From: a virus
DNA: 30,886 nt
IMG/VR virus record: IMGVR_UViG_3300042691_011952
Span: 1-30,886 of that record
Strand: one strand, 5' to 3'
The notes under the pieces were generated by a model that did not search any database, was not told the origin of the DNA, and worked only from the letters and a program-made list of their open reading frames with translations. Made by a program: the position numbers and the translations under genes. Positions 3,442 through 30,241 of the stretch are shown one piece after another (the first letter of the stretch is position 1; each line of letters opens with the position of its first letter).

Positions 3442-5247
3442 ATGGCTACTAAAGAAGAAAAATCAAGTAATTTTTGGTCCAGTGCTAAAGTAGAAAGATT
3501 AGTATATGACGCCGAAGAGAATGGTGTTGATTATAAAGACGTAGATAATCCTTTTCATGAGAATGATCCAGAATTAAGAAAGGGTAATATCCTTTTTGAA
3601 TATACTGAATGGGAATTAGAAGAGATACAAAAATGTGCGGAAGACGTTGTTTATTTTGCTAATACATACTGTCACGTTATGACGGACGAAGGTATTAGAC
3701 AGATATTACTACGTGATTATCAAATTCAAATCCTAAATCAATATCAGCACCACAGAAAAAATGTATTCGTTTCTCCTAGACAATCAGGAAAAACAATCAC
3801 ATCATCTATATTCTTATTGTGGTATCTTCTTTTTAACTTTGAAAAAAATGCCATGATTATGGCGAATATCGGAGATACCGCAGCGGAGTTAATGGACAAG
3901 ATTAAGGTGATTATGAAGGGCTTACCTTTCTTTTTAAAGCCTGGTCTAGTTGTTTATAACGTAATGACCATGAAGTTTGATAACGGATGCCGTATAATGG
4001 CTAAGACGACAACTAAAACATCGTCTATCGGTTATACGATTCATATGTTATACATGGATGAGTTTGCTCATATTAACCCTAACTTTATAAATCAGTTCTT
4101 TAAATCTGTTTATCCCACTATATCTTCATCACAAATTGCAAGGGTTATTATAACATCAACCCCTAATGGAATGAATAAATTCTTTGAGATTTATAAAGGA
4201 GCAGTCGAAGGGGAGAATGAATTTAATCCTATAAGAGTTGAATGGTGGCAGGTACCAGGAAGAGACGAGGAGTGGAAAAGAAAAGAAATAGCTGCTTTAG
4301 GTTCAGAAGAAGACTTTAATCAGGAATACGGTTGTCAATTTTTATCATCTTCAAGACTTTTACTAGATTCTAACACGTTAAAAAGATTAAAAAATACGGA
4401 GGAGCAGTTTTTATTTCATGAATTATCTCCATTTGAAAAAAGTCCTATTGATTATTCCAATCTTCTATGGCATCCAAAATTTGACCCGGCTTCTATATTT
4501 GAAAAGGATGGACAAAAATTCTACATCTCAATCGATACTGCAAGCGGGGGAGGAGGAGACTATTCAGTTGCTAATATCTTTAAAGTTGCTCCAATGCCGA
4601 GCAGTGTAATAAGAAACAAAAGGTTCTTTGAAGATGAAAGTGATTTTTTCTGTCTATTACAAGTTGGTATATTTAGATCTAACACGATAGAAATAGACGA
4701 ATTTAAAGCTTTCTTAGAAATTTTAGTCGTTGAAGTGATGGGAGTGGATAATACAAGAATAGTTCTAGAGCTAGATCATAAAGGGGAGATGCTTATGGAC
4801 AAATTATTAGACTCTGAAGATTTCTTTGATGAAATGTTTGTCTATACTAAACACTCAGAAGCTAGCACCAAATTAAAGCCGGGCGTTAAATTAACTGTAA
4901 AAAATAAAGAAAAGTTCTGCTACGATTTAAAAATAAACACCAGATCTCATAGAATAATTCCTTCAAACAAAAACGGAATACACGAACTAGCAAATTTTGG
5001 AGTAAATCCTAATGGAAGTTTTTCAAGTCAAATAGGAAAAGATGACGAGGCAATGACTCTAGTTAACATAAATTGTGTTTTTGATGGAGGTGATTTTCAA
5101 GAAACTGTCATGGATCTATATGACATCATCCCAGAAAAGTTCAGAAAACTGATAGAAGAGAGGCTTTCAGAAAATACAGAAGCATCACAAAATAAAACTA
5201 GTGATCTATCAAACTATACTTTCTTAAACGGACTCCTTGATTCTTAG
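3442..5247 (+). CDS. 17: Terminase large subunit, gp17-like packaging ATPase/nuclease
   Basis: 601 residues, close to T4 gp17 (610). The N-terminal ATPase has Walker A SPRQSGKT (residues 111-118), Walker B LYMDEF (D206, E207) and coupling motif TSTPNG (238-243). The C-terminal RNase H-like nuclease has ISIDTASGGGGDYS with the metal-binding D365, a second acidic strand IVLELDH and a third around GKDDEA. The enzyme pumps DNA through the portal into the prohead using ATP and cuts the concatemer when the head is full. It follows the gp16-like gene by 2 bases and is co-oriented with the sheath gene. All key motifs are present, so it should be functional. Confidence 0.97.
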   Translation: MATKEEKSSNFWSSAKVERLVYDAEENGVDYKDVDNPFHENDPELRKGNILFEYTEWELEEIQKCAEDVVYFANTYCHVMTDEGIRQILLRDYQIQILNQYQHHRKNVFVSPRQSGKTITSSIFLLWYLLFNFEKNAMIMANIGDTAAELMDKIKVIMKGLPFFLKPGLVVYNVMTMKFDNGCRIMAKTTTKTSSIGYTIHMLYMDEFAHINPNFINQFFKSVYPTISSSQIARVIITSTPNGMNKFFEIYKGAVEGENEFNPIRVEWWQVPGRDEEWKRKEIAALGSEEDFNQEYGCQFLSSSRLLLDSNTLKRLKNTEEQFLFHELSPFEKSPIDYSNLLWHPKFDPASIFEKDGQKFYISIDTASGGGGDYSVANIFKVAPMPSSVIRNKRFFEDESDFFCLLQVGIFRSNTIEIDEFKAFLEILVVEVMGVDNTRIVLELDHKGEMLMDKLLDSEDFFDEMFVYTKHSEASTKLKPGVKLTVKNKEKFCYDLKINTRSHRIIPSNKNGIHELANFGVNPNGSFSSQIGKDDEAMTLVNINCVFDGGDFQETVMDLYDIIPEKFRKLIEERLSENTEASQNKTSDLSNYTFLNGLLDS

Positions 5248-5317: not shown

Positions 5318-8300
5318 ATGGCAAAACAAGTCAAACTTGATTTATCCCAATTTAAAGCATCTGGTGTTTATACATTGGAATTTGATGCTAGTGAGAACAT
5401 TATTATTAACCCGTCTACCATTAGATTGGTGGTAGGTTATTCTAGCGTTGGTCCTTTCAACACGCCAGTTTATTGTCCGGATATCACTACTTTCCAATCA
5501 GTATTTGGAGGAATAGATAAAACTATGGAAAAGAAAGGATCTTTCTTCCACAGATCTTGCTTAGTATGTCTACAAAGTGGACCTATATTTGCTATTAATC
5601 TAAGACTTTTAAATAATACAGTAGACGAGAATGGAGATCCTGATTACGCATCAGGAGCTGATGTAGCTAGATATAGAGCTTTCTCTATGGATACAGAGGA
5701 ACAAAATGGAGCTAACGCTACTGGAGGATATTCAGATCCTTTAACAAAACAAGATAAATTATTATCTTCTTATTATAATAAGGAGAAGTTTTGGTTCCCT
5801 GATACTACATACTTATTAGCTACTGAAGACAATTCAGGTGCTCAACCAGATTCAAGAAAACTATTTAGCTTAGTTAATCTTGGTCAAAATCCAGTAAGTA
5901 TTATAGTAAGAAAATCTTTAGATTCTAGATTTCCTCTAAAAGGATTTGATATTACAGCTAGAGAATATTTTGGACCAGATAACGTGCCTTCTTACATGAA
6001 CCAATATGATTATCTTTCTGATTGGTTTATTGACGTAATTGCAGTAAGCGGTAACTGGACAGATTATCAAGCTCTTTCTAATGATCCTGTTTATAGTCAA
6101 TATTTTACATCTAAAGGATTTATTAAATCACAAATAGATAACTTTTTATCTCTAAATGGAGTAAATATTACATTAACAGTAACTGGTACAATCATTCCTA
6201 ACTTTACTGATCAAAACGGAACTTTAAGATATATTCAGACACTAATTAACAACCAAACACCAACAACTGGTATTTTCTGTGCTGTTAATGAAGAAGCTTT
6301 AGATGATCTTATTGATAACTCATCAGTATTTGACCTTGTTGGTCACCATTTAGTAGATGAGATAGGTTCAGATGCAGATATTAATTCAGTTCCTAAGAAT
6401 CTTAATTTCCTTTCTTATAGTCAAAATCTTTTTGCAGATTACACTTACTATAAGAATATAGACGGATCAACTGGAGGTACAGAAATTCAAGATAACCTTT
6501 CACCTTCTAATCCAGGTATGGATTTATTACCTGAGACTGGTACGCTTCTTATGGATAATCTATACAATGCAACAGGTGATGCAGGTATTCCTAGTTCACT
6601 TTGGGATACTTATAATCCTGCTGCTAGAGATGGTGGAGCTATTTATTTAGATACTTTGTTTACTTCTCCTACATTACATGACGATCAAATTACAACTTTA
6701 GATAGTTTCGTTAGCGTTTCTAATACTGCTCCTGCATCTAGATGGGTACTTGGTAAAGTAACAAGTAACCTTCCTACACCAGGATATCTTGGATTCTATG
6801 AAGGAGATTTAGTTAAATTAAGAATTGTAGAAGCTAAAACAATTACAAATTCTACTCTTCCTGTAGGTTTAAGAACTCAGGTAAGATTGAAATTAAAGCA
6901 TCCACTAGTTGGATCTACTCCTTCTACAACTTATGTTGAACCTTATGATATAACTAACAAGAGTACATCTGCAGCTTATCAAATAGGTAATCCAGATTAC
7001 TTTGATAATGATGATGTTTACTTCTCACCAGATATTCCAGTAGGAACTGACTCTTACTTAGCATACGAAAACTCTGAAATGTACAGAGACTGGGTAAAGG
7101 GTAACATTGGTGATGGTGATATCGATTGGAAAGATGACACAGGGTCATTACTACAATACTTAAAATTTGAAGTTAATGTAGATAGAGATGGTTACAACAT
7201 CCTAGTTTGTAGAGCTTTTGCAGATGATACATTTAACACACCGGAAGCTATTGCAACTTGGGATACTACTTATGTAAGTTCTCTTCCTATAGGAACTAAC
7301 CAAACAACAGGAGAAAGCTTTAATATAGTATCAACTGCAGGTAACATAAGTGACTATGTAGATATTATAACTCAGTTACAACCTAACGTTATTGAATTAT
7401 CTACTGCGGTTGCTAACTCATCAGGTATAAAAGTTGGAGATCTATTAGTATCAACTGATATACAGATCTATGATAATCCTTTAACTGAAAATCTTCAGTC
7501 TAGATTAACAAGAGTATTAGAAGTTAAAACAGTATCTTCTGCAACATCACCTGGAGTTTATACGATACAAGTTAAAACTGAAAGACCTATTAAACTATAT
7601 CCTGGTACTACTACAAGAGTTTGGAAATTTAAAAACGTACAAGAGTTTGTTAGAACATTCAACTTCACGTATCTTCCTGGAGCCGATATTAAGGCAGCTT
7701 CTATGCCTAACGGAACAGATACAAGAATGAACGAAATTCTTGATGTTCTTTACAACACTAATCTTGCTAGAACATTAGCAGACACTGACGTAATTACATT
7801 CAGATATATTGTTGATACATTTGACGGAGGTATTCAACCAAACTGTAAATACCAGCTTACTAAACTTGCTAAGAACAGACAAAAATGTTTAGCAATATGT
7901 AACTTACCTTCAATGAAGAAGTTTTCTGAATCTGTAGATCCTAGATTTACTTCTGCACCTACTGCAACAGATCCAGCTCCACTTTTACAAGCTAGATATA
8001 TTGCAGACGGAGGTAACTTAAGTTTAAACCCTGCATTTACTTTCTCTCTTCCTGATGAAGATTTAGGAGCTAAATTCTCTGGATTCTTTGCACCTTTCTT
8101 AACAATTAGAGAAAACAATAAGAATTTAGATGTACCACCTTCACCTTACGTTTCTAATAACTTTATTCGTAAGTTCATTACAGGAGAACCTTATTCAATC
8201 GTAGCAGGTCTTAAGAGAGGTATTATCTCTGCTAACAACTTAGTAGGATTAGAATATGACTTCGACATACAAGATAGAGAATATTTAGAGCCATTCGGAA

Positions 8301-8719
8301 TTAACCCTATTATTCGTAAGAGAGGAGTTGGTATAGTAATATACGGTAACCAAACAAGCTACCAAAGAACTAACTCAGCATTTAATAATCTACACGTTAG
8401 AGATTTATTAATCACTGTAGAAAGTGCAATTGAAGAAATACTTTCTAACTACGTATTTGATTTCAACGAAGATAATGTTAGACTTGAAATTAAAACGTTA
8501 GTAGACAACTACTTAACTGGAGTAAGATCTGTTGGAGGTATCTACAACTATCTAACTATTATGGACTCTTCAAACAATACCCCTGCAATAATCGATCAAA
8601 ACTTAGGTATTATCGACGTAATAATCGAACCTGCAAGAGGAATTCACAAGTTCATCAATAGAATGACAGTTACTAGAACAGGAGGTATCGCTTCAGGAGG
8701 ATTCATTCAATTTAGCTAA
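5318..8719 (+). CDS. 18: Tail sheath protein, gp18-like (large)
   Basis: 1133 residues. The N-terminus (residues 15-100) has the usual sheath start, with a beta strand, VVGYSSVGPFNTP, a grid of short strands and a FGG turn. The C-terminal 350 residues hold the conserved sheath domain, including RKRGVGIVIYGNQTSYQR, a helix with VRDLLITVESAIEEIL and a last strand ending IASGGFIQFS. Sheath subunits form the contractile outer tail cylinder and interlock through their ends. T4 gp18 has 659 residues, so about 450 extra residues lie in the middle (roughly 250-800) and probably form surface-exposed domains. It is followed by the tail tube genes, as in T4. It has its own late promoter box and an A-rich leader. 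Confidence 0.95.
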   Translation: MAKQVKLDLSQFKASGVYTLEFDASENIIINPSTIRLVVGYSSVGPFNTPVYCPDITTFQSVFGGIDKTMEKKGSFFHRSCLVCLQSGPIFAINLRLLNNTVDENGDPDYASGADVARYRAFSMDTEEQNGANATGGYSDPLTKQDKLLSSYYNKEKFWFPDTTYLLATEDNSGAQPDSRKLFSLVNLGQNPVSIIVRKSLDSRFPLKGFDITAREYFGPDNVPSYMNQYDYLSDWFIDVIAVSGNWTDYQALSNDPVYSQYFTSKGFIKSQIDNFLSLNGVNITLTVTGTIIPNFTDQNGTLRYIQTLINNQTPTTGIFCAVNEEALDDLIDNSSVFDLVGHHLVDEIGSDADINSVPKNLNFLSYSQNLFADYTYYKNIDGSTGGTEIQDNLSPSNPGMDLLPETGTLLMDNLYNATGDAGIPSSLWDTYNPAARDGGAIYLDTLFTSPTLHDDQITTLDSFVSVSNTAPASRWVLGKVTSNLPTPGYLGFYEGDLVKLRIVEAKTITNSTLPVGLRTQVRLKLKHPLVGSTPSTTYVEPYDITNKSTSAAYQIGNPDYFDNDDVYFSPDIPVGTDSYLAYENSEMYRDWVKGNIGDGDIDWKDDTGSLLQYLKFEVNVDRDGYNILVCRAFADDTFNTPEAIATWDTTYVSSLPIGTNQTTGESFNIVSTAGNISDYVDIITQLQPNVIELSTAVANSSGIKVGDLLVSTDIQIYDNPLTENLQSRLTRVLEVKTVSSATSPGVYTIQVKTERPIKLYPGTTTRVWKFKNVQEFVRTFNFTYLPGADIKAASMPNGTDTRMNEILDVLYNTNLARTLADTDVITFRYIVDTFDGGIQPNCKYQLTKLAKNRQKCLAICNLPSMKKFSESVDPRFTSAPTATDPAPLLQARYIADGGNLSLNPAFTFSLPDEDLGAKFSGFFAPFLTIRENNKNLDVPPSPYVSNNFIRKFITGEPYSIVAGLKRGIISANNLVGLEYDFDIQDREYLEPFGINPIIRKRGVGIVIYGNQTSYQRTNSAFNNLHVRDLLITVESAIEEILSNYVFDFNEDNVRLEIKTLVDNYLTGVRSVGGIYNYLTIMDSSNNTPAIIDQNLGIIDVIIEPARGIHKFINRMTVTRTGGIASGGFIQFS

Positions 8720-8764: not shown

Positions 8765-9337
8765 ATGGCAGGATTACCACATTATACAAGTTCTAAGGCC
8801 TCGATCAACAAGTTCGAACCGGTTTTTCTAAACCAGTTTGAGGTTATTATTACTCCTCCGGCTGCTATTCCAGTTCAAGCTGGAAACCCAGGGAGTTCTA
8901 ATATATTGCTAGAGCAAGTAACTAGAGTATCTGGCTTACAGGTAGATCAAAACCCAGCGGAAATAACACAGCAATATAAATTTGCTAAAAGATATTACGC
9001 TGGTGCAGCTCCTGCAAGAACTGGATTGGATGTTGATATGGAATTTGAGATCAACTTAAATGACAACAACTCTATGTACGTTTTTAAAACACTACGTCAA
9101 TGGTCGGATTTAATTTATAATCCTCTTACTGGCGCTATGGGTCTTAAAAAAGATTACACAGGAAATATACTAGTTAATGTCTTCAATAAACAAGGTGATA
9201 TATTTAGAAAAATAAATCTTAGAGATTGCTTTCCGATGACGGCTATTAACGAAATGGGATTGAACTACACTCAGACATCAATATACAAATTGACTCTACA
9301 ATGGGCAGTTGATTATTTCGAAGACGTGTTTATATAA
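8765..9337 (+). CDS. 19: Tail tube protein, gp19-like, copy 1
   Basis: 190 residues (T4 gp19: 163). It has the family pattern: an N-terminal strand FLNQFEVIITPP, the loop VSGLQVDQNP, a helix with LNDNNSMYVFKTLRQWSDL and a final strand ending DYFEDVFI. Tube subunits stack as hexameric rings through which DNA passes. The gene directly follows the sheath gene, as in T4. A second copy starts 11 bases after this one ends. The two proteins share the first seven residues (MAGLPHY/F) and the segment KTLRQWSDLIYNPLTGAMG, and are clearly paralogous. Confidence 0.93.
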   Translation: MAGLPHYTSSKASINKFEPVFLNQFEVIITPPAAIPVQAGNPGSSNILLEQVTRVSGLQVDQNPAEITQQYKFAKRYYAGAAPARTGLDVDMEFEINLNDNNSMYVFKTLRQWSDLIYNPLTGAMGLKKDYTGNILVNVFNKQGDIFRKINLRDCFPMTAINEMGLNYTQTSIYKLTLQWAVDYFEDVFI

Positions 9338-9348: not shown

Positions 9349-9927
9349 ATGGCAGGATTACCACATTTTACATCGGCAAAAGCGGCGGTACAATTGTACG
9401 AACCGGTATATCTTAACCAATTTGAGGTTATTATACAACCTCCTGCTGGTGTTGCACTTGAGCAAGGAAACGGGGGAAGATCACTTTTAGTTGAAAATGT
9501 TCTATCAGTTACTGGTTTAACTGTTGATAAAAACCCAACGCCTGCAGAACAAAGATATAAATTCACTAAAAGAAGATACGCAGGTGGAGTTATAGACGAT
9601 ACTGGTGTTAAGATTAGAATTGAATTTGAAACAAACCTTAACGACAATAACAGTAATTATGTTTTTAAAACTCTTCGTCAATGGTCAGATTTAATTTATA
9701 ATCCTTTAACAGGGGCTATGGGAATAAAATCTAACTATGCTGGAGGTACTTATATTCTTGTTTCCATCTTCAATAAACAAGGTGATGTATTCAGAAGAAT
9801 TAAATTACTAAATTGTTTCCCTGTTGATCAGATTAAATCTTTAGATCTTGATTACACCAACGGTACTACTCCTTATAAAATAGCACTTTCATTTAGAGCT
9901 GATTATTTCGAGGACGTTTTTAATTAA
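9349..9927 (+). CDS. 19: Tail tube protein, gp19-like, copy 2
   Basis: 192 residues, paralogous to the preceding gene over its full length. It shares the start MAGLPHFTS, the strand LNQFEVIIQPP, VTGLTVDKNP, the segment LNDNNSNYVFKTLRQWSD and the end DYFEDVFN. The copies differ most in the loops around residues 35-50 and 85-100 and in the C-terminal third, where this copy has DQIKSLDLDYTNGTTP. This looks like an old duplication kept under selection rather than a recent copy. The two could form mixed rings, or one could make a specialised ring at an end of the tube. A terminator follows. Confidence 0.93.
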   Translation: MAGLPHFTSAKAAVQLYEPVYLNQFEVIIQPPAGVALEQGNGGRSLLVENVLSVTGLTVDKNPTPAEQRYKFTKRRYAGGVIDDTGVKIRIEFETNLNDNNSNYVFKTLRQWSDLIYNPLTGAMGIKSNYAGGTYILVSIFNKQGDVFRRIKLLNCFPVDQIKSLDLDYTNGTTPYKIALSFRADYFEDVFN

Positions 9928-10265: not shown

Positions 10266-11303
10266 ATGGAAAACAATATGGACGACGAATTACTCAATCA
10301 TCTTGGTAGAAAAGAAGCGGAATCTAAATTCCAATATGACCAAGATCCAGATGTAGGATCTTATACAATACCTGATTGGATTGATAAAGAAGCTAATGCA
10401 CAACAAAATACACAGCCATTAGAAACTCCACAAAATAATTTAGGAAGAGTAAATAATACTAGAACACCAATGGGAATGGAGAACGACTGGAAAAATATAC
10501 CAGCTGAAAATCTTCCTTCCAAAGGATTTGGATACCCAGAAGGTTTCGAAGTTGCTATAAAGGCATCAGGCGTTAAAGAAATTCGACAATTCTCTACAGT
10601 TGACGAAGACGATAGAATAGATTTAGATGACAAATTAAATACTATCTTAGCTAAGTGTATGAAGATAAGATGGAATGGAGGATTTCTAGAACCATACGAT
10701 CTTTGGTACGAAGACAGATTCTACATTATAATGTCTATTAGGGATATGACTTTCTTAAGAGGAGAGAATAAAATATTACTTCCTGTAACTAAGAACTGTA
10801 CAAAACCTGATTGTAATGTTCCAGATATGTTGGAACTAAGATCAAATCTATTAGATAGCTTTGTAGTAGATCCCGAAATTCTTAAAAGATACAACAGAGA
10901 AACATATTCTTTTAAATTTGTACCTAAAGACGGAAGCCAAGAAATGGATCTTTATATTCCTACCGTTGGTGTGACAACAGTATGTAGAAAAATATTATCC
11001 GACAAAAGAAGGAAAGGAAAAACTTTCGATGAGAGTTTTGCTAAAGTCGCTTCTTTTATTATTCCAGATTGGAGAGGCTTGGATGAATCTGTTTATGATC
11101 AATATGAAAGAGCTTCTAATGAGTGGACTCCTTTACAATTTTCTATAGCAGATCAAATAACAGAGAAGATAAACTTTGCCACTAAATCAAGAATTTATAG
11201 TAAATGTGAAAGCTGTGAGGGGGAGGTCACAGCAGATATATCATTTCCCGGAGGATACAGATCTCTTTTCGTTATTTCAGATATCTTTAGCCAATTACTT
11301 TGA
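10266..11303 (+). CDS. 26: Baseplate/tail assembly protein, gp26-like (zero-frame product)
   Basis: 345 residues to the TGA at 11301-11303. The core (about residues 75-200) matches my recollection of the T4 gp26-type baseplate hub family: an N-terminal LPSKGFGYPEGFEV, a helix DDKLNTILAKCMKI and a strand YIIMSIRDMTFLRG, then a Cys-containing loop. Four cysteines in two pairs (C178/C183 and C314/C317) suggest a metal-binding knuckle. The N-terminal 70 residues are polar and probably disordered. An alternative start at the ATG at 10278 gives MDDELL. The gene probably helps assemble the baseplate hub or tail initiator. Its end overlaps a second open frame by 128 bases with a CTT TGA at the junction (see the recoding entry). 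Confidence 0.65.
   Translation: MENNMDDELLNHLGRKEAESKFQYDQDPDVGSYTIPDWIDKEANAQQNTQPLETPQNNLGRVNNTRTPMGMENDWKNIPAENLPSKGFGYPEGFEVAIKASGVKEIRQFSTVDEDDRIDLDDKLNTILAKCMKIRWNGGFLEPYDLWYEDRFYIIMSIRDMTFLRGENKILLPVTKNCTKPDCNVPDMLELRSNLLDSFVVDPEILKRYNRETYSFKFVPKDGSQEMDLYIPTVGVTTVCRKILSDKRRKGKTFDESFAKVASFIIPDWRGLDESVYDQYERASNEWTPLQFSIADQITEKINFATKSRIYSKCESCEGEVTADISFPGGYRSLFVISDIFSQLL
11298..11303 (+). other. Candidate +1 programmed frameshift site CTT TGA
   Basis: In the gp26-like frame the last sense codon and stop are CTT TGA, the same six bases used by the bacterial release factor 2 gene for +1 frameshifting. A slip of the Leu tRNA from CTT to TTT would place GAT (11302) in the next codon and continue for 59 residues to TAA 11479-11481. 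The downstream frame has no ATG. No strong Shine-Dalgarno-like sequence is visible just upstream, unlike the release factor case. Confidence 0.55.
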
Positions 11304-11481
11304 TATCAAGTTTAGACTTTGGGACGAATTTAAGTTATCTATAGATCACTTAGAGAATCTTCCTTTTTATGAATATCAATTGTTTATAGATAAGCTAAAC
11401 GAAAAAATAGAAAAAGAAAACAAAAAAGTAGAACAAGGCGATCTAGTAGAAGCCTTTACATTTTCAAAGCCAAAAAGATAA
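11302..11481 (+). CDS. +1-frame extension of gp26-like protein
   Basis: A 59-codon frame beginning at the frameshift site, predicted sequence starting DIKFRLWDEFKLS, then a helix with NLPFYEYQLFIDKLNEKIEK and a Lys-rich end. The open frame extends upstream to a TTG at 11176, but those codons overlap the gp26-like frame and look like out-of-frame translation. The part after 11302 has a sensible amphipathic composition. A fused product would have 404 residues. Producing a short and a long form from one gene recalls the G/GT tail chaperones of other tailed phages. Alternatives are independent translation from TTG, or a one-base sequencing error in the TTT run. Confidence 0.55.
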   Translation, partial: DIKFRLWDEFKLSIDHLENLPFYEYQLFIDKLNEKIEKENKKVEQGDLVEAFTFSKPKR

Positions 11482-11517: not shown

Positions 11518-13302
11518 TTGGCAGGAGAAACAGGCACACAGGGATCAACAGGATCAGGAACACAGGGATCAACAGGATCAGGATTTCCGGTTTTTAAATC
11601 GGTAGAAGGTGCATTTGATAGAGCTAAGTTTCATAAAACTATTAGTTCTGGTGCAGGGTCAATAATCACACCAGAAACATTTGATGCTATGAAAGCTGCG
11701 GATAGCGCAGGTCAAGCCGCAAAACTTTTTTACGCAATATCATTTAATAAGAATTTAAGAGAGCTAGATCCAGAATTTAGAAGTGACTTGGTTTTTTACC
11801 GATTAGCATACTCGGAAGATAAAGTAGATAAAAATCTCATATCCGAGGATATAGACGAGGGAAAATCTGTTGACGGTAAGGATATATTTGAAATGTCTAA
11901 AAGATCTGCTAAGCAAAAATATAATAACGCAAAGATACTTAAAGAAGGAAATGTAACACAGATAATAGAAAATATAGGTTCTATTAGTGAAATAGAGGGT
12001 TTTGAATCATATGATTCAGTTAAAGATGAATTTGATAGCAAGATAAAAGACGAAAAACTAAAGTTTGATGTTTTATCTGATAAGTTTTTAGATATTCTTG
12101 GCTACTTTAATCAGGAAGGAGCTAGCGTTAATGCTAAAATGCTATATACTCCAGAAAATAATGCAATGATATCAGCATTTGCTAAGATATTAGAAGGAGA
12201 AGGATTCAATTCTGCTAGTGTTTTAGAAATGTCCAAAAGATATGATGATAATATAAAAAAATTAATAGAAAGTAAAGAGGGGAAAAAAGCAGAGGATGTA
12301 ATAAAAGATGCTGCACAAGAGGCTAAAAAGGAAGAAGCGAAGACAAAAACAGAAGAAACTAAGATAGAAGAAAAGAAATCAGAAACACCGTCTGGTCCAA
12401 CTGGATCTGCCCAAGTAGCAGGATCTACCGGATCAGCTGGATCAACTGGGACGGTAGAAAGCGCTTCAAATGAAACCAAAAAAACAGAAACCCCTACTAC
12501 AGGCCCAACAGCTTCCACAAGTACCGAAAATCTTACTAATAAAAGTACAACAGGTACTACAGGTACTACAGGTGGTACAGGGGGTACAGGAAAAGCGGAA
12601 GATATAAAAACAGGAAATAAGAAAGGCAAAAAAGGTAAAGATACAACACCAGCTCTTAGCGAATCAAATAAAGGAATCCTAGAAATGCTAGGATTAAAAA
12701 TGCCATCTAAAGAAGGTGACAAAAAAGAAGGAGAAGGAGGAGATGAAAAGGGTAAGGGTAAAGGAAAAGGAACTACAACAGGAAGCGCTGAGGTAGACAA
12801 GACACTAGAAGAACTAGGATTTAAAAAACCAAAAGAAGAGTCAGGAGACACAAAAGGAAAAGGAAAAGGAAAAACCGATAATAAATCTAAGTCAGAAAAT
12901 AAAGAAACTAAATTAGATGAAAAAGTTTCCACAAATAATGATAAAAAAACTGAAACTTCTACAACTAATACCCCTATAAAAGAAACAACAACACAAAATT
13001 TATCTAGTGTAAATACACCTACAACAGATAAGACTGAAGATAAAAAGGAAGATACAAAGACTACTACAAGTACAATTACAAGCACTGAAAATAAAACTGA
13101 AGATAAAAAATCAGATACTGAAGTAAAAACTGAAGGAACTCAACAAAAAGAAGGGGAAAATAAAGAAAAAACAGGGGATCAAGATAAAGCTATGAAAGAG
13201 TTAGGAGATAACATGAAATCTATGGTAACATTACTAACTCAGCTAAACAATACGTTAAAAAATCCTCTAATTGTTATACCTAACGGAAAAAAGTTTCATT
13301 AA
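11518..13302 (+). CDS. Low-complexity virion-type protein
   Basis: 594 residues from a TTG start. The sequence around it (TTGGCAGGA) parallels the ATGGCAGGA of the tube genes, which supports the choice. The N-terminus carries Gly/Ser/Thr repeats (GTQGSTGS twice). Residues of about 25-265 form a helical domain. About 265-555 are disordered, very rich in Lys, Glu, Thr and Gly, with GTTGTTGGTGGTGK and KGKGKG runs. The last 40 residues form a helix ending PLIVIPNGKKFH. It follows a gp26-like gene and precedes the non-structural block. The position after a frameshifting assembly gene and a length near that of T4 gp29 (590) would fit a tape measure, but the composition does not, so I leave the function open. 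Confidence 0.75.
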   Translation: MAGETGTQGSTGSGTQGSTGSGFPVFKSVEGAFDRAKFHKTISSGAGSIITPETFDAMKAADSAGQAAKLFYAISFNKNLRELDPEFRSDLVFYRLAYSEDKVDKNLISEDIDEGKSVDGKDIFEMSKRSAKQKYNNAKILKEGNVTQIIENIGSISEIEGFESYDSVKDEFDSKIKDEKLKFDVLSDKFLDILGYFNQEGASVNAKMLYTPENNAMISAFAKILEGEGFNSASVLEMSKRYDDNIKKLIESKEGKKAEDVIKDAAQEAKKEEAKTKTEETKIEEKKSETPSGPTGSAQVAGSTGSAGSTGTVESASNETKKTETPTTGPTASTSTENLTNKSTTGTTGTTGGTGGTGKAEDIKTGNKKGKKGKDTTPALSESNKGILEMLGLKMPSKEGDKKEGEGGDEKGKGKGKGTTTGSAEVDKTLEELGFKKPKEESGDTKGKGKGKTDNKSKSENKETKLDEKVSTNNDKKTETSTTNTPIKETTTQNLSSVNTPTTDKTEDKKEDTKTTTSTITSTENKTEDKKSDTEVKTEGTQQKEGENKEKTGDQDKAMKELGDNMKSMVTLLTQLNNTLKNPLIVIPNGKKFH

Positions 13303-14055: not shown

Positions 14056-14679
14056 ATGGCAGTAAATAATATACAGGAATTGGCAGAGAGTTTTATGAGA
14101 ACATCATCGGAGAAAGACTTCGTTGAATTATACAAAAGAATTAAACCTGGTCTACTAAACCATTGTAAATCTATATTAGTAGAACAAGAAGCAGCTGAAG
14201 ATGCAGTTTCTAATACAATGGCTAAGATATGGACTAAGATATCGCAGTATGATCCATCTAGAGGTAACTTCTCTACATGGGTTTATAATATAGCAAGAAA
14301 TGAATCACTCGGAATTAAAAAGAACGAGGACAGATATCTACCAATTATACAAGAGGTTGTAAGAAGTAATGAAGATTCGGATGAATCTGTATATCCATCA
14401 ATTACATCCTCACCAGCAACATTAGAAGCAGAATTTGATTATATAACCTCAGAAAACGACGAAATGGAAGATTTATATGAAAACGTAGTTGAGAAGATGA
14501 AAGATCTTCCAGAAATTTACAAGGATATACTATTTGATAGAGAAATCCTTAGAATGAAATACCAGGAAATAGCAGATAAGTATGGTATGAAAAAAAGAGC
14601 TATTGCGACAAGAATTAGAAGAGCTAGATTAAAAGTTAGGGATATGTTTCCTGGTGTTAATTTGACTTTTAACGATTGA
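14056..14679 (+). CDS. ECF-like sigma-70 family sigma factor
   Basis: 207 residues. Region 2 spans about residues 20-95, with AEDAVSNTMAKIWTKISQYD (DNA -10 and core binding) followed by NFSTWVYNIARNESLG, the typical ECF end of region 2. An acidic linker of about 50 residues follows. Region 4 (about 148-200) has LPEIYKDIL, then a helix-turn-helix MKYQEIADKYGMKKRAIATR and RRARLKVRDMF. Such proteins direct RNA polymerase to specific promoters. The long linker is unusual for ECF factors. A separate gp55-type sigma factor is encoded at 25508, so this one may serve another promoter class, possibly the GATATATAC sites. That link is speculation. Confidence 0.88.
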   Translation: MAVNNIQELAESFMRTSSEKDFVELYKRIKPGLLNHCKSILVEQEAAEDAVSNTMAKIWTKISQYDPSRGNFSTWVYNIARNESLGIKKNEDRYLPIIQEVVRSNEDSDESVYPSITSSPATLEAEFDYITSENDEMEDLYENVVEKMKDLPEIYKDILFDREILRMKYQEIADKYGMKKRAIATRIRRARLKVRDMFPGVNLTFND

Positions 14680-16515: not shown

Positions 16516-16518
16516 GTG

Positions 16519-16528
16519 GATATATACT
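16519..16528 (+). promoter_or_regulatory. GATATATACT promoter-like motif
   Basis: GATATATACT lies immediately after the terminator and five bases before the ATG at 16534. The identical 10-mer recurs at 22924. If it is a -10 element, the message would start at or near the ATG, making it leaderless. Confidence 0.35.
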
Positions 16529-16533
16529 TAAGT

Positions 16534-17781
16534 ATGAAAAAGAAATTATTACCTTGGATAATAGCCTTATCTGCATTATCAGTTTCAGGATCGGCTGCTT
16601 TTTATTCTGTTACAGGACTTGGTAAAATGTTTGCTGGTGCATCATTACAAGTAATGGTTTTAGCAGGAAGTTTAGAATTTGCTAAACTTGTTACAGCCTC
16701 ACTATTATATCAGTATTGGAAAAAGCTGAAGCTTGGTTTGAAACTATACCTATCAATAGCAACACTTATATTAATAATTATAACATCCGCAGGGATATAT
16801 GGATTCTTGTCTTCTGCTTATCAAGAAACATCATTCAAAGTACAGAATCAGGATAAAAATATTCAGATCCTTGATAAAAATATTTCAATAATAAAGACAG
16901 AGATTACTAATTACGAATCACAGATAAAACAAAAGAATGATAGACTTGGACAATTAACTACTATAAGAACAAATCTACAATCAACACAGGATGTACTTAT
17001 AGAAAAATCAAAATCAACTAATGCAGTACGTCAACAAATAAAAGATGTTGACGGAGAAATAAAAAGAATGGATTCAGAGATATCAGTATTAAATGATTCA
17101 ATATCATCTAAAAATACTAGGATATCATCAATTGAGCAAGAAAAGTTTGGCGTTTCTTCTAATGCAGATCTTGCTAAAGAGGTTGGACCATTAAAATATA
17201 TTGCAAAATTAACAGGAAGCGATATAGACAGTGTGGTTAACTGGTACATAATAATTTTGATGCTAGTTTTTGATCCTTTGGCTATTGCTTTAGTTATTGC
17301 TGCTAACTTTGCATTTGAAATGAATGAGGAAAAAGAAAATAAAAAAGAAGAAGATATGGAAGAAAAAGAAAGCTCTATAAAAAGAATCTGGAAAAATATA
17401 ACTAGAAGGAGAAAAAAAGATATAGCTCAAGAAGAAGATATAATCTCACAAGATTTAACAAATGAAAATGAAAATATCTTAGTAGAAGACGAAGAACATA
17501 TTATAGATTATTCCAATCTAGAAACGGAAAAAAATGAGGAAATAGAAGAATCTATTATAAACGAAACTTCACTAGAAACAGAAAAAGAAGAGTTAATATT
17601 AGAAGATACTAAAAAAGAGGAAAATAAAGAAGAGAAACCGGATAAATATGATAAGGATTTAAAAGTTCCTAATAGATTAAAAAGTACAAGGGATAAATTT
17701 AGAGGAAATCCTGACGTAAAAAACTCTAGAGAGGGTCTAAGAAATAAAACGGATGATTCAAATCCATTAAATTTAAGATGA
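16534..17781 (+). CDS. Polytopic membrane protein with long periplasmic-type coiled coil
   Basis: 415 residues from the ATG at 16534. An in-frame GTG at 16516 lies in the terminator T-tract and is less likely. Three hydrophobic segments come first (about 6-24, 38-60, 70-92), with GSAAFYSVTGLGKMFAGAS and LAGSLEFAKLVTASLLYQYW. A coiled coil follows at about 100-205, then a fourth membrane segment (237-262, with FDPLAIALVIAANFAF) and a long, very acidic, Lys/Glu-rich cytoplasmic tail. I recall this arrangement in proteins of unknown function from several marine and Bacteroidota T4-like phages. It could sense or remodel the host envelope. The end overlaps the next gene by ATGA. Confidence 0.88.
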   Translation: MKKKLLPWIIALSALSVSGSAAFYSVTGLGKMFAGASLQVMVLAGSLEFAKLVTASLLYQYWKKLKLGLKLYLSIATLILIIITSAGIYGFLSSAYQETSFKVQNQDKNIQILDKNISIIKTEITNYESQIKQKNDRLGQLTTIRTNLQSTQDVLIEKSKSTNAVRQQIKDVDGEIKRMDSEISVLNDSISSKNTRISSIEQEKFGVSSNADLAKEVGPLKYIAKLTGSDIDSVVNWYIIILMLVFDPLAIALVIAANFAFEMNEEKENKKEEDMEEKESSIKRIWKNITRRRKKDIAQEEDIISQDLTNENENILVEDEEHIIDYSNLETEKNEEIEESIINETSLETEKEELILEDTKKEENKEEKPDKYDKDLKVPNRLKSTRDKFRGNPDVKNSREGLRNKTDDSNPLNLR

Positions 17782-18932: not shown

Positions 18933-21821
<2,889 letters not shown>

Positions 21822-26352: not shown

Positions 26353-26945
26353 TACCGCCATTTAGAAAAAAGTTCGACGACTACAAATTTTCAGTTTCTG
26401 GATTAACTTCTCTTCCTGAAGAATCATTTATGCACTGGGTAAAAAATTATGTAAATAAAAACTCCCAATTTAATCCATTAAATTTTTTACAAGGAAAGGT
26501 TTACTCATTTTCTTATAATGACAAACTAGAACCAGGTAAAAAGTTTATAAATAAAAGACCTGTTATTTTTTTTACTGGATACGACAACTACGAAAAGAAA
26601 AATCTTTTCACTGGATTAGATCTTGTTTTAATACCACCAATTTTTAGATTATCTTTCTTTGAAAGAGTGCAAAGTGTATTTCAAGATCAGATAGAAAGAA
26701 ACTTACAGAAAGAAGAGAACGGAGACGGTAGAGATCAAGCTCCTCTTAGAACTGAGTATCAAATAATGGAAACAATTCTTAAAGGTATTCCCTATAAACA
26801 TGCTTATAGATCATGGGATTTAAAAAAAGTTAGAGATGTTATGGAAATTCCTTTTGAAGATTGGACTAGAATAATATATCTGGATACTCGTTCAATTGAA
26901 GGGACCCAGTTAAATGAGATATATAATAAAAATTCAAAAGTTTAA
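26349..26945 (+). CDS. Conserved-type protein of unknown role, between gp4-like and portal genes
   Basis: 198 residues. It contains a central beta domain with FLQGKVYSFSYNDKLEPG, then RPVIFFTGYDN, GLDLVLIPPIFRLSFFERVQ and a C-terminal helical part with KVRDVMEIPFEDWTRIIYLD. The motif of pulling strands plus LIPP and R-L-hydrophobic recalls a small SH3-like protein seen in other T4-like phages, but I cannot name it. It does not resemble T4 gp53. Overlaps the gp4-like stop by ATGA and the portal start by TAATG, so it is probably co-translated with head genes. Confidence 0.8.
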   Translation: MIPPFRKKFDDYKFSVSGLTSLPEESFMHWVKNYVNKNSQFNPLNFLQGKVYSFSYNDKLEPGKKFINKRPVIFFTGYDNYEKKNLFTGLDLVLIPPIFRLSFFERVQSVFQDQIERNLQKEENGDGRDQAPLRTEYQIMETILKGIPYKHAYRSWDLKKVRDVMEIPFEDWTRIIYLDTRSIEGTQLNEIYNKNSKV

Positions 26946-28576
26946 TGGCTGGACTTACCGACGAAAAAAAATCATTCTTTAGCTCTATCATAGAGAACAT
27001 AAAGAAAGTGGGTAGTTTTGGAATGGCCTACGAGGATTTAGTTATAAAAAATTCACAAGCAGTAGGTATAACAGAAGCTCAGTTTCTCCAAAAAGGAGGA
27101 ATTAAAGATGAATCTTTCTTATTTGGTTTAAGAAGAGCAGATACTACAACTAAACAATACATAGCATACTTTGATAAGGATTATAAAAATAAAAGACACT
27201 ACTTACAAGGATTTGCTCAAAACCCAGAAATAGAATTTATATTAGACACAATATGTGACGAATCTATAGTTTACGACGAAAAAAACTTCTGGGCTTATTT
27301 TTCTTTTATGCAGCATGATGATGTTGATGAAGAAACATATGATAAAGTACAAAAAAGATACAAAGAGATTTACAATCTATTTGGATTTAATCAAGACATA
27401 TCAGCATGGCATTTATTTAGAAAATTTCTAGTAGATGGTATTATAGCATTTGAAATAGTATTCGATAAAAAAGGAAAGAACATTGTAGGATTTAAAGAAT
27501 TAGATCCTTGGTCTTTAATACCAACAGTAGAGCCACAGCCCGATGGTAGTTTTATTGATATATGGATTCAGTATCCAGATAATCCATCACTTACAAGAAA
27601 ACTATATGATTCACAAATAATCTATTTAAGTTATGCTAAAGGTGGCGGAACATCATCTAGAGTTAGTTACTGTGAAAGAATGATTAGATCCTTTAATCTA
27701 TTAAGAATAATGGAGCATACTAGAATCATATGGAACGTAATGAACTCATCTTACAGGATGGCAATGACAGTTCCAATTGGTACTAGATCCCCACAAAAGG
27801 CTAAACAGACTTTAGGAGAACTTATGTCAATCTATAAAGAGGATATAAGATTAAATACTGACAGTGGGGAATTAAGTGTAGATGGTAAACCAAAAATACA
27901 ATTCTTTAAAAACTATTTAATGCCTTCATCTCCTAATGGTACTCCTGATATACAACCACTACCCGGTGGAGGTGATGCAACAGCATTTTCTGACACAACA
28001 GTACTTAAGTATTTTGCAAATAAATTAAGGATGGACTCTAAAATACCAGCAACAAGATTTGGTAGAGAAGAGTCAGGATCAGAAGGAACAATTACTTTTA
28101 CAGCAGAAGGTCTTGATCAAGAAGAAGTAAGATTTGGTAAGTTTATAAACAGGCTTAGATCAATATACCAAGAAATACTAATGAAACCACTTTGGGTTCA
28201 ATTCTGTTTAGATTTTCCGCACTTGAAAAAAGACTATATAATAAAATCTGAATTCGGTCTAGACTATGTTAAAGAAAACATGTTTAGAGAGGCAAAAGAA
28301 ATGGAAGTTTTAACTGCAAGAAAAGATCAGGTAATTAAAATATCAGCATTAATGAATTCACAAGGAAAAAAATACTTTAGTATGGATTTCTTAGTGGATC
28401 GATGGCTAGGAGTTAAAGGACAGGATCTTCTAACAAATAAAAAAGCTAAAGAAAAAGCTGCGGAAGAAAAGAAAAAAGCAGCTGAAGCAGAAGCTGGTGC
28501 TACGGGAGCTGAAGGAGCTACTGGAGCTGAAGGAGCTACTGGAGCTGAAGGTGGAGGAGACGAATTTACACTATAA
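26945..28576 (+). CDS. 20: Portal vertex protein, gp20-like, copy 1
   Basis: 543 residues (T4 gp20: 524). It has the T4 portal pattern: YIAYFDKDY, FILDTICDESIVYDE, a wing region with FKELDPWSLIP, the stretch IMEHTRIIWNVMNSSYRMAM then PVG-like TVPIGTRSPQKAK, LGELMSIYKEDI, and the C-terminal MDSKIPATRFGRE and RLRSIYQEILMKPLW. The portal ring at one head vertex nucleates head assembly, carries the packaging motor and later binds the neck. The C-terminus is an unusual Ala/Glu/Lys stretch ending in GATGAEGATGAEG repeats. A second portal gene follows 6 bases later. Confidence 0.95.
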   Translation: MAGLTDEKKSFFSSIIENIKKVGSFGMAYEDLVIKNSQAVGITEAQFLQKGGIKDESFLFGLRRADTTTKQYIAYFDKDYKNKRHYLQGFAQNPEIEFILDTICDESIVYDEKNFWAYFSFMQHDDVDEETYDKVQKRYKEIYNLFGFNQDISAWHLFRKFLVDGIIAFEIVFDKKGKNIVGFKELDPWSLIPTVEPQPDGSFIDIWIQYPDNPSLTRKLYDSQIIYLSYAKGGGTSSRVSYCERMIRSFNLLRIMEHTRIIWNVMNSSYRMAMTVPIGTRSPQKAKQTLGELMSIYKEDIRLNTDSGELSVDGKPKIQFFKNYLMPSSPNGTPDIQPLPGGGDATAFSDTTVLKYFANKLRMDSKIPATRFGREESGSEGTITFTAEGLDQEEVRFGKFINRLRSIYQEILMKPLWVQFCLDFPHLKKDYIIKSEFGLDYVKENMFREAKEMEVLTARKDQVIKISALMNSQGKKYFSMDFLVDRWLGVKGQDLLTNKKAKEKAAEEKKKAAEAEAGATGAEGATGAEGATGAEGGGDEFTL

Positions 28577-28582
28577 AATAAA

Positions 28583-30241
28583 ATGGCTGGATTTTTAGAT
28601 AACTTAGGAAAAATAAATCCGAATATCTCTAGGATATTAAAAACTATTAGCGGATTAGGATCATTTGGTATGGAGTATAAGGATATGGTAATCCAAGACT
28701 CTATGGCAATAGGTGTATCTGAAGCTAATATGAGAGAAAGGTTCGGGTTTACAGATACCGACGAAGATTTCATCTATAGTATAGCTGCACAGGATACTAC
28801 TAATAGAAAGTATATTGCATACTTCGATAAAGATTATCCTTTCAAAAGAGACTTCCTTAGAACATTTGCACTAAATGCTGAGATAGAATATATTCTAGAT
28901 ACTATATGCGATGAAGCTATAGTTTATGACGAAAAGAACTTCTTTTGTCATCCTGCTTTAATGAATATGGATCTTAAAGAAGATGTCGTAAAAGCAATGA
29001 GAAAAAATTTCAGAAAGCTATACGTACTTCACAACTTCGCTAATGGTTTAACCGGATGGCAATACTTTAGACAATTAATAGTTGAAGGATTCTTAGCATT
29101 CGAAATAATATATTCGAATGACGGAAAAGAAATAATAGGATTTAAAGAGTTAGATCCAGTAAGCTTAACTCCAGCAGTCGAAAAAAAAGCAGATGGAACT
29201 AGAGAAACTATATGGTGGCAATATTACGGAGAAACAGTAAGACAAAGAAAATTATTGGATGCTCAGGTCATTTACATATCATATGCTAAGGCAAATGTTG
29301 TTTCTAGAGTTTCATATACTGAAAGATTAATAAGATCATACAACTTATTAAAAATAATGGAGCATTCCCGAATAATATGGAACGTAATGAATTCTCAATA
29401 TAGAATTAAAATGACAGTTCCTATTGGAAGTAAAGCCCCCCAAAAAGCTAAAGAAACATTAGGTGAACTTATGTCAGTTTATAAAGAGGACATTAAGTTA
29501 GATACAACATCCGGTGAATTATCAATAAACGGTAGACCTGATATACAATTCTATAAAAACTACTTATTCCCTCAGCAAGGAGGTGAATCAGTTAAAATAG
29601 AAACATTAAATGCACAAGGACCCAATCTAAATGTTATGGACTCAGTGGTTTACTTCTATAATAAACTAAGACAAGATTCCAAAATACCTTATAATAGATT
29701 TTCTTCTAGATTTGGAGTTGGATCAAATAACGTTTTTAAAACAGGTGCAGATGGAGCAGAAAGGGATGAAGTAAGATTTGCTAAGTTTACAACAAGACTT
29801 AGATCTATATTTCAGGAAATAATAGTTAAACCCCTTTGGATACAGATGTGTTTGGATTTTCCAGATCTTAAAAATGATTCGGAGTTCAGAAGTCAAATAG
29901 GTGTAAAATTTGAAAGCGATAACCTATTTGGTGAATCTAGAGAAATAGAACAGTTAATAAAGAAAATAGATTTCATAACAGCAATGGGCGAAATTAAAGA
30001 AACTGTGAACGAGGAAGAAGTACAATTTTTTGATCAGGACTTTATGATAGAAAGATGGCTTGATTTATCTTATGATGATATACAGCTAAACAAATCTTAT
30101 GTAAAGAAATCTGAGGAAGATGGAAAAGCTGGAGCTACCGGAGCTACCGGAGGGGCGGAAGCAGCAGCAGAACCAGCAGCAGAACCAGCAGCAGAACCAG
30201 CAGCAGCAGAACCAGCAGCAGGGGAAGAACCAGCAGTATAG
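28583..30241 (+). CDS. 20: Portal vertex protein, gp20-like, copy 2
   Basis: 552 residues, aligned with copy 1 along its full length and roughly half identical by eye. Shared blocks include GSFGM, YIAYFDKDY, YILDTICDEAIVYDEKNF, GFKELDP, IMEHSRIIWNVMNS, TVPIGSKAPQKAK, LGELMSVYKEDI and RLRSIFQEIIVKPLWIQ. Both copies keep the same landmark motifs, so both should fold as portals. Differences lie in the wing insert, the loop after NYLFPQQGG and the C-terminal tail, which here is GATGATGG followed by repeats of AAEPAAEPAAE. No pseudogene signs. Possible roles: a mixed ring, two head types, or one copy specialised for another vertex. Confidence 0.95.
   Translation: MAGFLDNLGKINPNISRILKTISGLGSFGMEYKDMVIQDSMAIGVSEANMRERFGFTDTDEDFIYSIAAQDTTNRKYIAYFDKDYPFKRDFLRTFALNAEIEYILDTICDEAIVYDEKNFFCHPALMNMDLKEDVVKAMRKNFRKLYVLHNFANGLTGWQYFRQLIVEGFLAFEIIYSNDGKEIIGFKELDPVSLTPAVEKKADGTRETIWWQYYGETVRQRKLLDAQVIYISYAKANVVSRVSYTERLIRSYNLLKIMEHSRIIWNVMNSQYRIKMTVPIGSKAPQKAKETLGELMSVYKEDIKLDTTSGELSINGRPDIQFYKNYLFPQQGGESVKIETLNAQGPNLNVMDSVVYFYNKLRQDSKIPYNRFSSRFGVGSNNVFKTGADGAERDEVRFAKFTTRLRSIFQEIIVKPLWIQMCLDFPDLKNDSEFRSQIGVKFESDNLFGESREIEQLIKKIDFITAMGEIKETVNEEEVQFFDQDFMIERWLDLSYDDIQLNKSYVKKSEEDGKAGATGATGGAEAAAEPAAEPAAEPAAAEPAAGEEPAV

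Follow-up and report, generated by a model that had tools for sequence, protein, structure and literature searches.

A putative +1 frameshift at UUU_C in a gp26/gp51-type tail assembly chaperone gene of Bacteroidota-type phages

Two overlapping frames in the tail gene region

The window analyzed here is a 30,886-nucleotide stretch of viral DNA from IMG/VR, and it holds a tail region in which two overlapping reading frames probably specify a short and a long form of one protein (Table 1). The 0-frame ORF closes with the codons TTA CTT TGA, while the +1 frame stays open up to a TAA at 11479-11481, 59 codons past the 0-frame stop. No ATG occurs in this extension, and joining the 0 frame to the +1 frame would give a fusion product of 404 residues. 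An earlier note on this DNA had given the same coordinates, lengths, and frames (345 aa, 59 codons, no ATG, and a 404-residue fusion) with a 0 frame ending in CTT TGA, and our reading of the ORFs bears these out. Within the overlap, at 11262-11285 and at homologous sites, the two frames encode look-alike peptides, SLFVIS in the 0 frame and SLFQIS in the +1 frame; an aligner superposes them, and they resemble the FF motif that ends gp26 of the T4 superfamily.

Table 1. Features of the tail region and of the proposed recoding site in the window
Feature	Coordinates	Strand	Remarks
Sheath	5318-8719		phrog_34521
Tail tube-like paralogue	8765-9337	+	phrog_32623 and phrog_3629; adjoins the 9349-9927 gene
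Tail tube gene	9349-9927	+	phrog_32623 and phrog_3629
0-frame gene, putative short tail assembly chaperone (TAC-N, gp26-like)	10266-11303	+	345 aa; stop TGA 11301-11303; phrog_36717, PF12322 via homologues
SD-like GGAGG within GGGGAGGTC (11220-11228)	11222-11226	+	17 nt upstream of the slip codon
Proposed slippery tetranucleotide TTT_C	11244-11247	+	0-frame A-site codon CCC 11247-11249; 133/133 loci
Dual-coded overlap, both frames read	11244-11303	+	Very few variable columns in both clades; 0-frame-silent and +1-silent changes mixed
+1-frame C-terminal domain of the putative long form (TAC-NC, gp51-like)	11248-11481	+	Begins CCG GAG GAT; phrog_634

The two-frame gene lies downstream of the sheath gene and the two tail tube genes, surroundings that are as expected for a tail assembly chaperone. 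A tape measure candidate at 16516-17781 has a weak match to phrog_10613. Directly after the chaperone gene comes a 594-residue low-complexity ORF (11518-13302, +) that is rich in G, S, T, K, and E; it has no family match, and TTG is its first listed start. The structural region also contains an RNA polymerase sigma factor-like gene (14056-14679, +; phrog_1740, E 1.1e-27). A probable tail fibre protein (18933-21821, +) has collagen-like repeats (PF01391, E 1.7e-12). Two full-length portal protein genes stand in tandem (26945-28576 and 28583-30241, +); they are 48% identical over 519 residues and both match phrog_213, and two portals in one phage are unusual.

Protein family and conservation of both frames

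The short form matches phrog_36717 (E 1.1e-13), and the Pfam family T4_baseplate (PF12322) is matched by 4 of 13 aligned homologues (best 3.4e-8); the window protein itself reaches PF12322 only through its family. The +1 ORF matches phrog_634, named "baseplate hub assembly catalyst" (E 2.3e-7), and residues 297-390 of the fusion align with positions 20-114 of phrog_634 across the junction (E 4.5e-7). Of the T4 proteins, gp26 and gp51 share a match to phrog_150, and gp51 has a further match to phrog_634, at 147-246, with both of its domains in a single frame. We therefore regard gp51 as a gp26 paralogue with an extra C-terminal domain. An AlphaFold2 model of the fusion has moderate confidence (mean pLDDT 73.8) and is weak at the junction (residues 327-334); its BFVD matches are relatives and a T4-like baseplate hub assembly prediction (E 6e-6), and a PDB fold search with it returned nothing significant. 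The assignment of a gp26-like gene by the earlier note is thus borne out, and its idea of a short and a long form following the logic of lambda G/GT gains support from the gp26-like short form together with the gp51-family match of the predicted fusion.

Searching IMG/VR with the 0-frame protein yielded 54 relatives, 50 of which extend past the site; every one of these 50 retains the 0-frame stop and has a +1 extension of exactly 59 codons. The same arrangement, with extensions of about 50 to 150 codons, is present in distant phages: Sphingomonas phage PAU, Chryseobacterium phage MA9V-1, Flavobacterium phage MaF61, Tenacibaculum phages PTm1 and PTm5, Prevotella Lak phages (in some of which TAG must be read as Gln for the arrangement to hold), and five huge-phage records. 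Conservation of both frames in related phages, to which the earlier note had pointed as a check, thus extends from close to distant relatives. From the isolates among them (Flavobacterium, Chryseobacterium, Tenacibaculum, and Prevotella) we infer a host within Bacteroidota. A scan of bacterial genomes with the protein of one relative, L070, found no relatives. In the huge-phage record LR756501 (positions 4728-5099), the +1 extension runs 101 codons past the stop and is unlike the others just after the shift site, with VFSNQVLSYS instead of LFSLFQIS.

The pattern of variation follows the two frames. Upstream of the site, 19 of 20 variable columns are 0-frame third positions; downstream, the variable columns switch to +1 third positions, with strong constraint between. 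After the 0-frame stop, +1 third positions are variable in 47 of 49 codons, whereas the first two codon positions vary in only 22 and 15 of the 49. Judged from these comparisons, the two-frame layout is far beyond chance, and one family of very large viruses that infect Bacteroidota-type bacteria appears to obtain two versions of a single tail-building helper from one gene, with some ribosomes skipping a single base in the direction opposite to that of related T4-type phages. The core proposal of the earlier note, that a gp26-like gene undergoes a +1 programmed frameshift, is in this respect supported by two-frame conservation and homology. Annotated isolates carry a separate tiny gene call at this place (PAU gp94, MA9V-1 MA9V1_007, MaF61 ORF156, and PTm1 ORF-023). 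On our reading, the annotation of sequenced Bacteroidota phages and of huge phages would be corrected, the "extra" small ORFs becoming tails of a fusion protein, and an unannotated gene would gain a homology-based name.

Position and mechanism of the proposed shift

Motifs were counted in 133 loci, 51 in clade A and 82 in clade B, with the window included. Loci inside each clade are kin and their counts are not independent events, so the argument for the site rests on agreement over about eleven lineages. The earlier note had placed the shift at CTT TGA, as in RF2 genes, where the stop codon acts as the slow A-site signal. We consider a shift there highly improbable. CTT TGA is found in the window and in 32 of the 51 clade A loci, but relatives that retain the extension have TTT TGA (14 loci) or CTT TAA (5 loci) in clade A, and GAA TAA or AAA TAA in 82/82 clade B loci, where GAA_U is unable to re-pair. 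In clade A, changes at +27, +36, +42, and +54 from TTT replace 0-frame residues and are silent in +1. Replacements of F by L, S by E, D by N, and L by F in the 0 frame accompany silent +1 changes upstream of the 0-frame stop, and the 30 nt preceding that stop are constrained more in the +1 frame than in the 0 frame. Because the stop context varies and the substitutions before it alter the 0-frame protein while leaving the +1 protein unchanged, the shift is placed upstream of CTT TGA, and the changes from +27 onward indicate that ribosomes have entered the +1 frame well upstream of the stop. A search 3 nt before CTT TGA found no SD-like sequence; the GGAGG lies instead 17 nt before TTT. On the 5' side, a +1 stop stands directly before TTT in the huge-phage records LR756500 (L059) and LR756501 (L064) and in two clade B sequences, and one clade A sequence has a +1 stop about 8 nt upstream of TTT. 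These stops and the 3' substitution pattern bound the shift between about -3 and +27 of TTT.

Within these bounds, TTT CCC is in frame in 133/133 loci of both clades, 57 to 63 nt before the 0-frame stop (11244-11249 in the window, 57 nt), and it has no other in-frame occurrence among the 9251 window codons counted. Another in-frame CCCG is present earlier in the chaperone gene. All 11 lineages with a site at the same position carry TTT CNN, with CAA, CCT, CGA, and CTC as variants besides CCC. The 0-frame residue after Phe is P, Q, R, or L, yet the first base of its codon is always C, and, apart from TTT_C, no +1 tetranucleotide that re-pairs perfectly occurs at this position in all 11 lineages. 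TTT_C itself is therefore indicated as the site, and UUU_C is, on this comparison, its constant part. The exceptions are MA9V-1, with TTT CTA 8 codons later; PTm1, with TTT CAA upstream; and LR756504, which has CCC_A alone and no TTT_C at the aligned position. At +6 to +20, the +1 residues (D/G, T/I, and L/P) are more variable than the 0-frame residues, which leaves some room for a shift slightly downstream of TTT. The same variability favors a shift a few codons past TTT, where the SLF motif contains a conserved (C/A)TT TTC (about 11265-11270 in the window), as do the position of the -1 T-run of cyanophage gp26, which falls at the corresponding FF motif, and the ability of CTT_T to re-pair through G-U as in RF2. 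However, ATT TTC in clade B, TTA TTC in L070, and ATA TTC in Lak phages re-pair poorly, and a shift at the SLF motif explains neither the invariance of TTT nor the constant C that follows it despite the amino acid change; we consider it unlikely.

Alternatively, the +1 ORF could be a small gene in its own right, with an independent start and translational coupling to the gene before it. Annotators have called a separate gene there in PAU, MA9V-1, MaF61, and PTm1; PAU has a +1 ATG six bases after its GGAGG, and in clade B +1 ATG codons stand about 37 nt past TTT. Clade A, though, is without a conserved start near the site, and no ATG, GTG, or TTG common to both clades follows the last +1 stop in the +1 frame. 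An independent start codon for the +1 ORF was rejected on this ground, as none is conserved. The gp51-family match also extends without a break from 0-frame residue 297 across the junction, and a separate gene is thus very unlikely. That the arrangement is an artifact of sequencing or assembly, or a pseudogene in decay, has nothing in its favor beyond the original worry over the run of T. It is barely credible, since about 130 contigs drawn from many metagenomes, as well as sequenced isolates, share one frame relation and both frames are under purifying selection.

The locus is thus very probably a tail assembly chaperone pair whose long form is made through a +1 slip of tRNA-Phe at UUU_C. Most ribosomes would read 10266-11303 in frame and produce the 345-residue short form. 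A fraction would pause while UUU (11244-11246) occupies the P site and the rare CCC the A site, and the peptidyl-tRNA-Phe would then re-pair one base ahead, from UUU to UUC, with full pairing. Translation would go on with CCG GAG GAT to the stop at 11479-11481 and yield the 404-residue long form. By analogy with lambda G/GT, the tape measure protein would be covered by many short copies and few long ones, whose extra domain would bring in tail tube subunits. Slippage of tRNA-Phe from UUU to UUC is the likeliest mechanism by analogy with influenza PA-X, for which P-site slippage on UUU_C has been argued in work that also predicted a class of such sites (PMC3498833). When the slip codon of RF2 was randomized, CCC and UUU were the next most slippery (PMC10885494). 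The A-site codons CCC, CGA, and CTC are rare, at 2 to 8% of the codons for their amino acid; CAA and CCT, used by some lineages, are not rare. No tRNA genes were found in the window. The predicted junction peptides are ...DIVFPTESNIFSL... in PAU and ...LHFENTVLFSL... in MaF61.

In clades A and B, GGAGG is part of GGGGAGGTC or GAGGAGGTC and precedes TTT by exactly 17 nt. It recurs at the same spacing in PAU, LR756500, LR756501, L070, L073, L155, and Lak-C1 and is absent from MaF61 and L158. Among unique clade A sequences, the codons of the element are GGG in 26/26, GAG in 25/26, GTC in 26/26, and ACA in 26/26; in clade B, GAG is found in 53/53 and GTC in 46/53. GTC makes up 2 to 3% of Val codons, yet it is nearly fixed in the element, where GAG and GTC are minority or rare choices with synonymous sites that hardly vary. 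The known SD stimulators of +1 shifting, as in RF2, act at a much shorter spacing than 17 nt. Ribosomes of Bacteroidia have been reported not to recognize SD sequences (PMC9976891). For both reasons, the long spacing and the reported indifference of these ribosomes, GGAGG fits poorly as a known SD stimulator, and its conservation at synonymous sites, in phages whose hosts are reported to ignore such sequences, poses a puzzle that can be tested. A phage-encoded bS21 able to alter SD use was found in none of 8 related records. We also considered a stimulatory RNA hairpin, which was rejected since 11215-11320 folds worse than shuffled sequences (z +1.77), and a GAGGUC/GAUCUC pairing spotted by eye, which is broken by variation at +20.

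Comparison with known systems

The earlier note knew of no such recoding in gp26-type genes. That statement stands for the +1 direction, as the accessible portions of the literature searched yielded no paper on a +1 shift in a gp26/gp51-type tail chaperone gene. It is otherwise incomplete: Vladimirov et al. (2022, as cited in PMC12846349 and PMC10885494) have already identified T4 gp26 and gp51 as chaperones of tail assembly, and their counterparts in the T4 superfamily show a -1 anatomy. Since the protein pair is known and the direction and site of the present branch were not found described in that literature, we read the locus as a variation on a known pair. The domains are homologous to those of T4, with a short form and a long form that has an extra C-terminal domain; in T4, however, gp26 and gp51 are two separate, divergently oriented paralogous genes, whereas here one gene would give both products by a +1 shift. 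Seven T4-superfamily phages (S-PM2, S-CAM1, P-SSM5, the Vibrio phage PVA8, Aeromonas phage 65, phiM12, and YB07) come closer, with a short gp26-like ORF followed by a gp51 part of 54 to 61 codons in another frame. In these seven, a T-run close to the stop (TTTTTTC in six and TTTTTTT in phiM12) precedes a -1-frame extension, unlike the +1 frame and the TTT_C 57 to 63 nt before the stop in the present group. Among the cyanophage and other T4-superfamily records with this -1 anatomy in gp26/gp51 are L161 (26066-26370) and L164-L169, and several records annotate gp51 as a separate small gene. Taken together, the two genes of T4, the -1 shift of cyanophages, and the putative +1 shift described here suggest that the protein pair is conserved and the direction of recoding is not.

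Lambda G/GT and the -1 tail chaperones of other long-tailed phages (Xu 2004; phage Adele, PMC12846349) likewise derive two isoforms from one frameshifted gene beside tail genes, and they differ from the present locus in the direction of the shift and the type of slippery site. A +1 shift has been reported as very likely for the tail G-T protein of the archaeal myovirus HSTV-2 (PMC5009743), a case comparable with ours in the direction of the shift and the type of gene. In a bacterial phage with +1 shifts in structural genes, those for the capsid and tail shaft, the direction of the shift and the kind of host are shared; no chaperone is involved there, and the slip occurs on proline next to a pseudoknot or stop, whereas several of the present lineages are without CCC.

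We tentatively raise the possibility that the gp26/gp51 pair is expressed in three ways, by -1 frameshifting, by gene duplication, and by a +1 shift at UUU_C with a conserved GGAGG 17 nt upstream. If this is true, the GGAGG element in Bacteroidota would imply a new type of +1 stimulator or conditional use of SD sequences. The closest parallels to the site itself are influenza A PA-X and the plant amalgaviruses, with +1 sites of the form UUU_CGN (PMC3498833 and PMC5052127), where P-site slippage on UUU_C with a slow A-site codon is of the kind proposed here; MaF61 and L155 carry TTT CGA, matching UUU_CGN. Those systems involve eukaryotic ribosomes and unrelated genes, whereas the sites described here are mostly TTT CCC with an upstream GGAGG, and they would provide a natural bacterial system for +1 frameshifting at UUU_C, the class predicted from the influenza work (PMC3498833).
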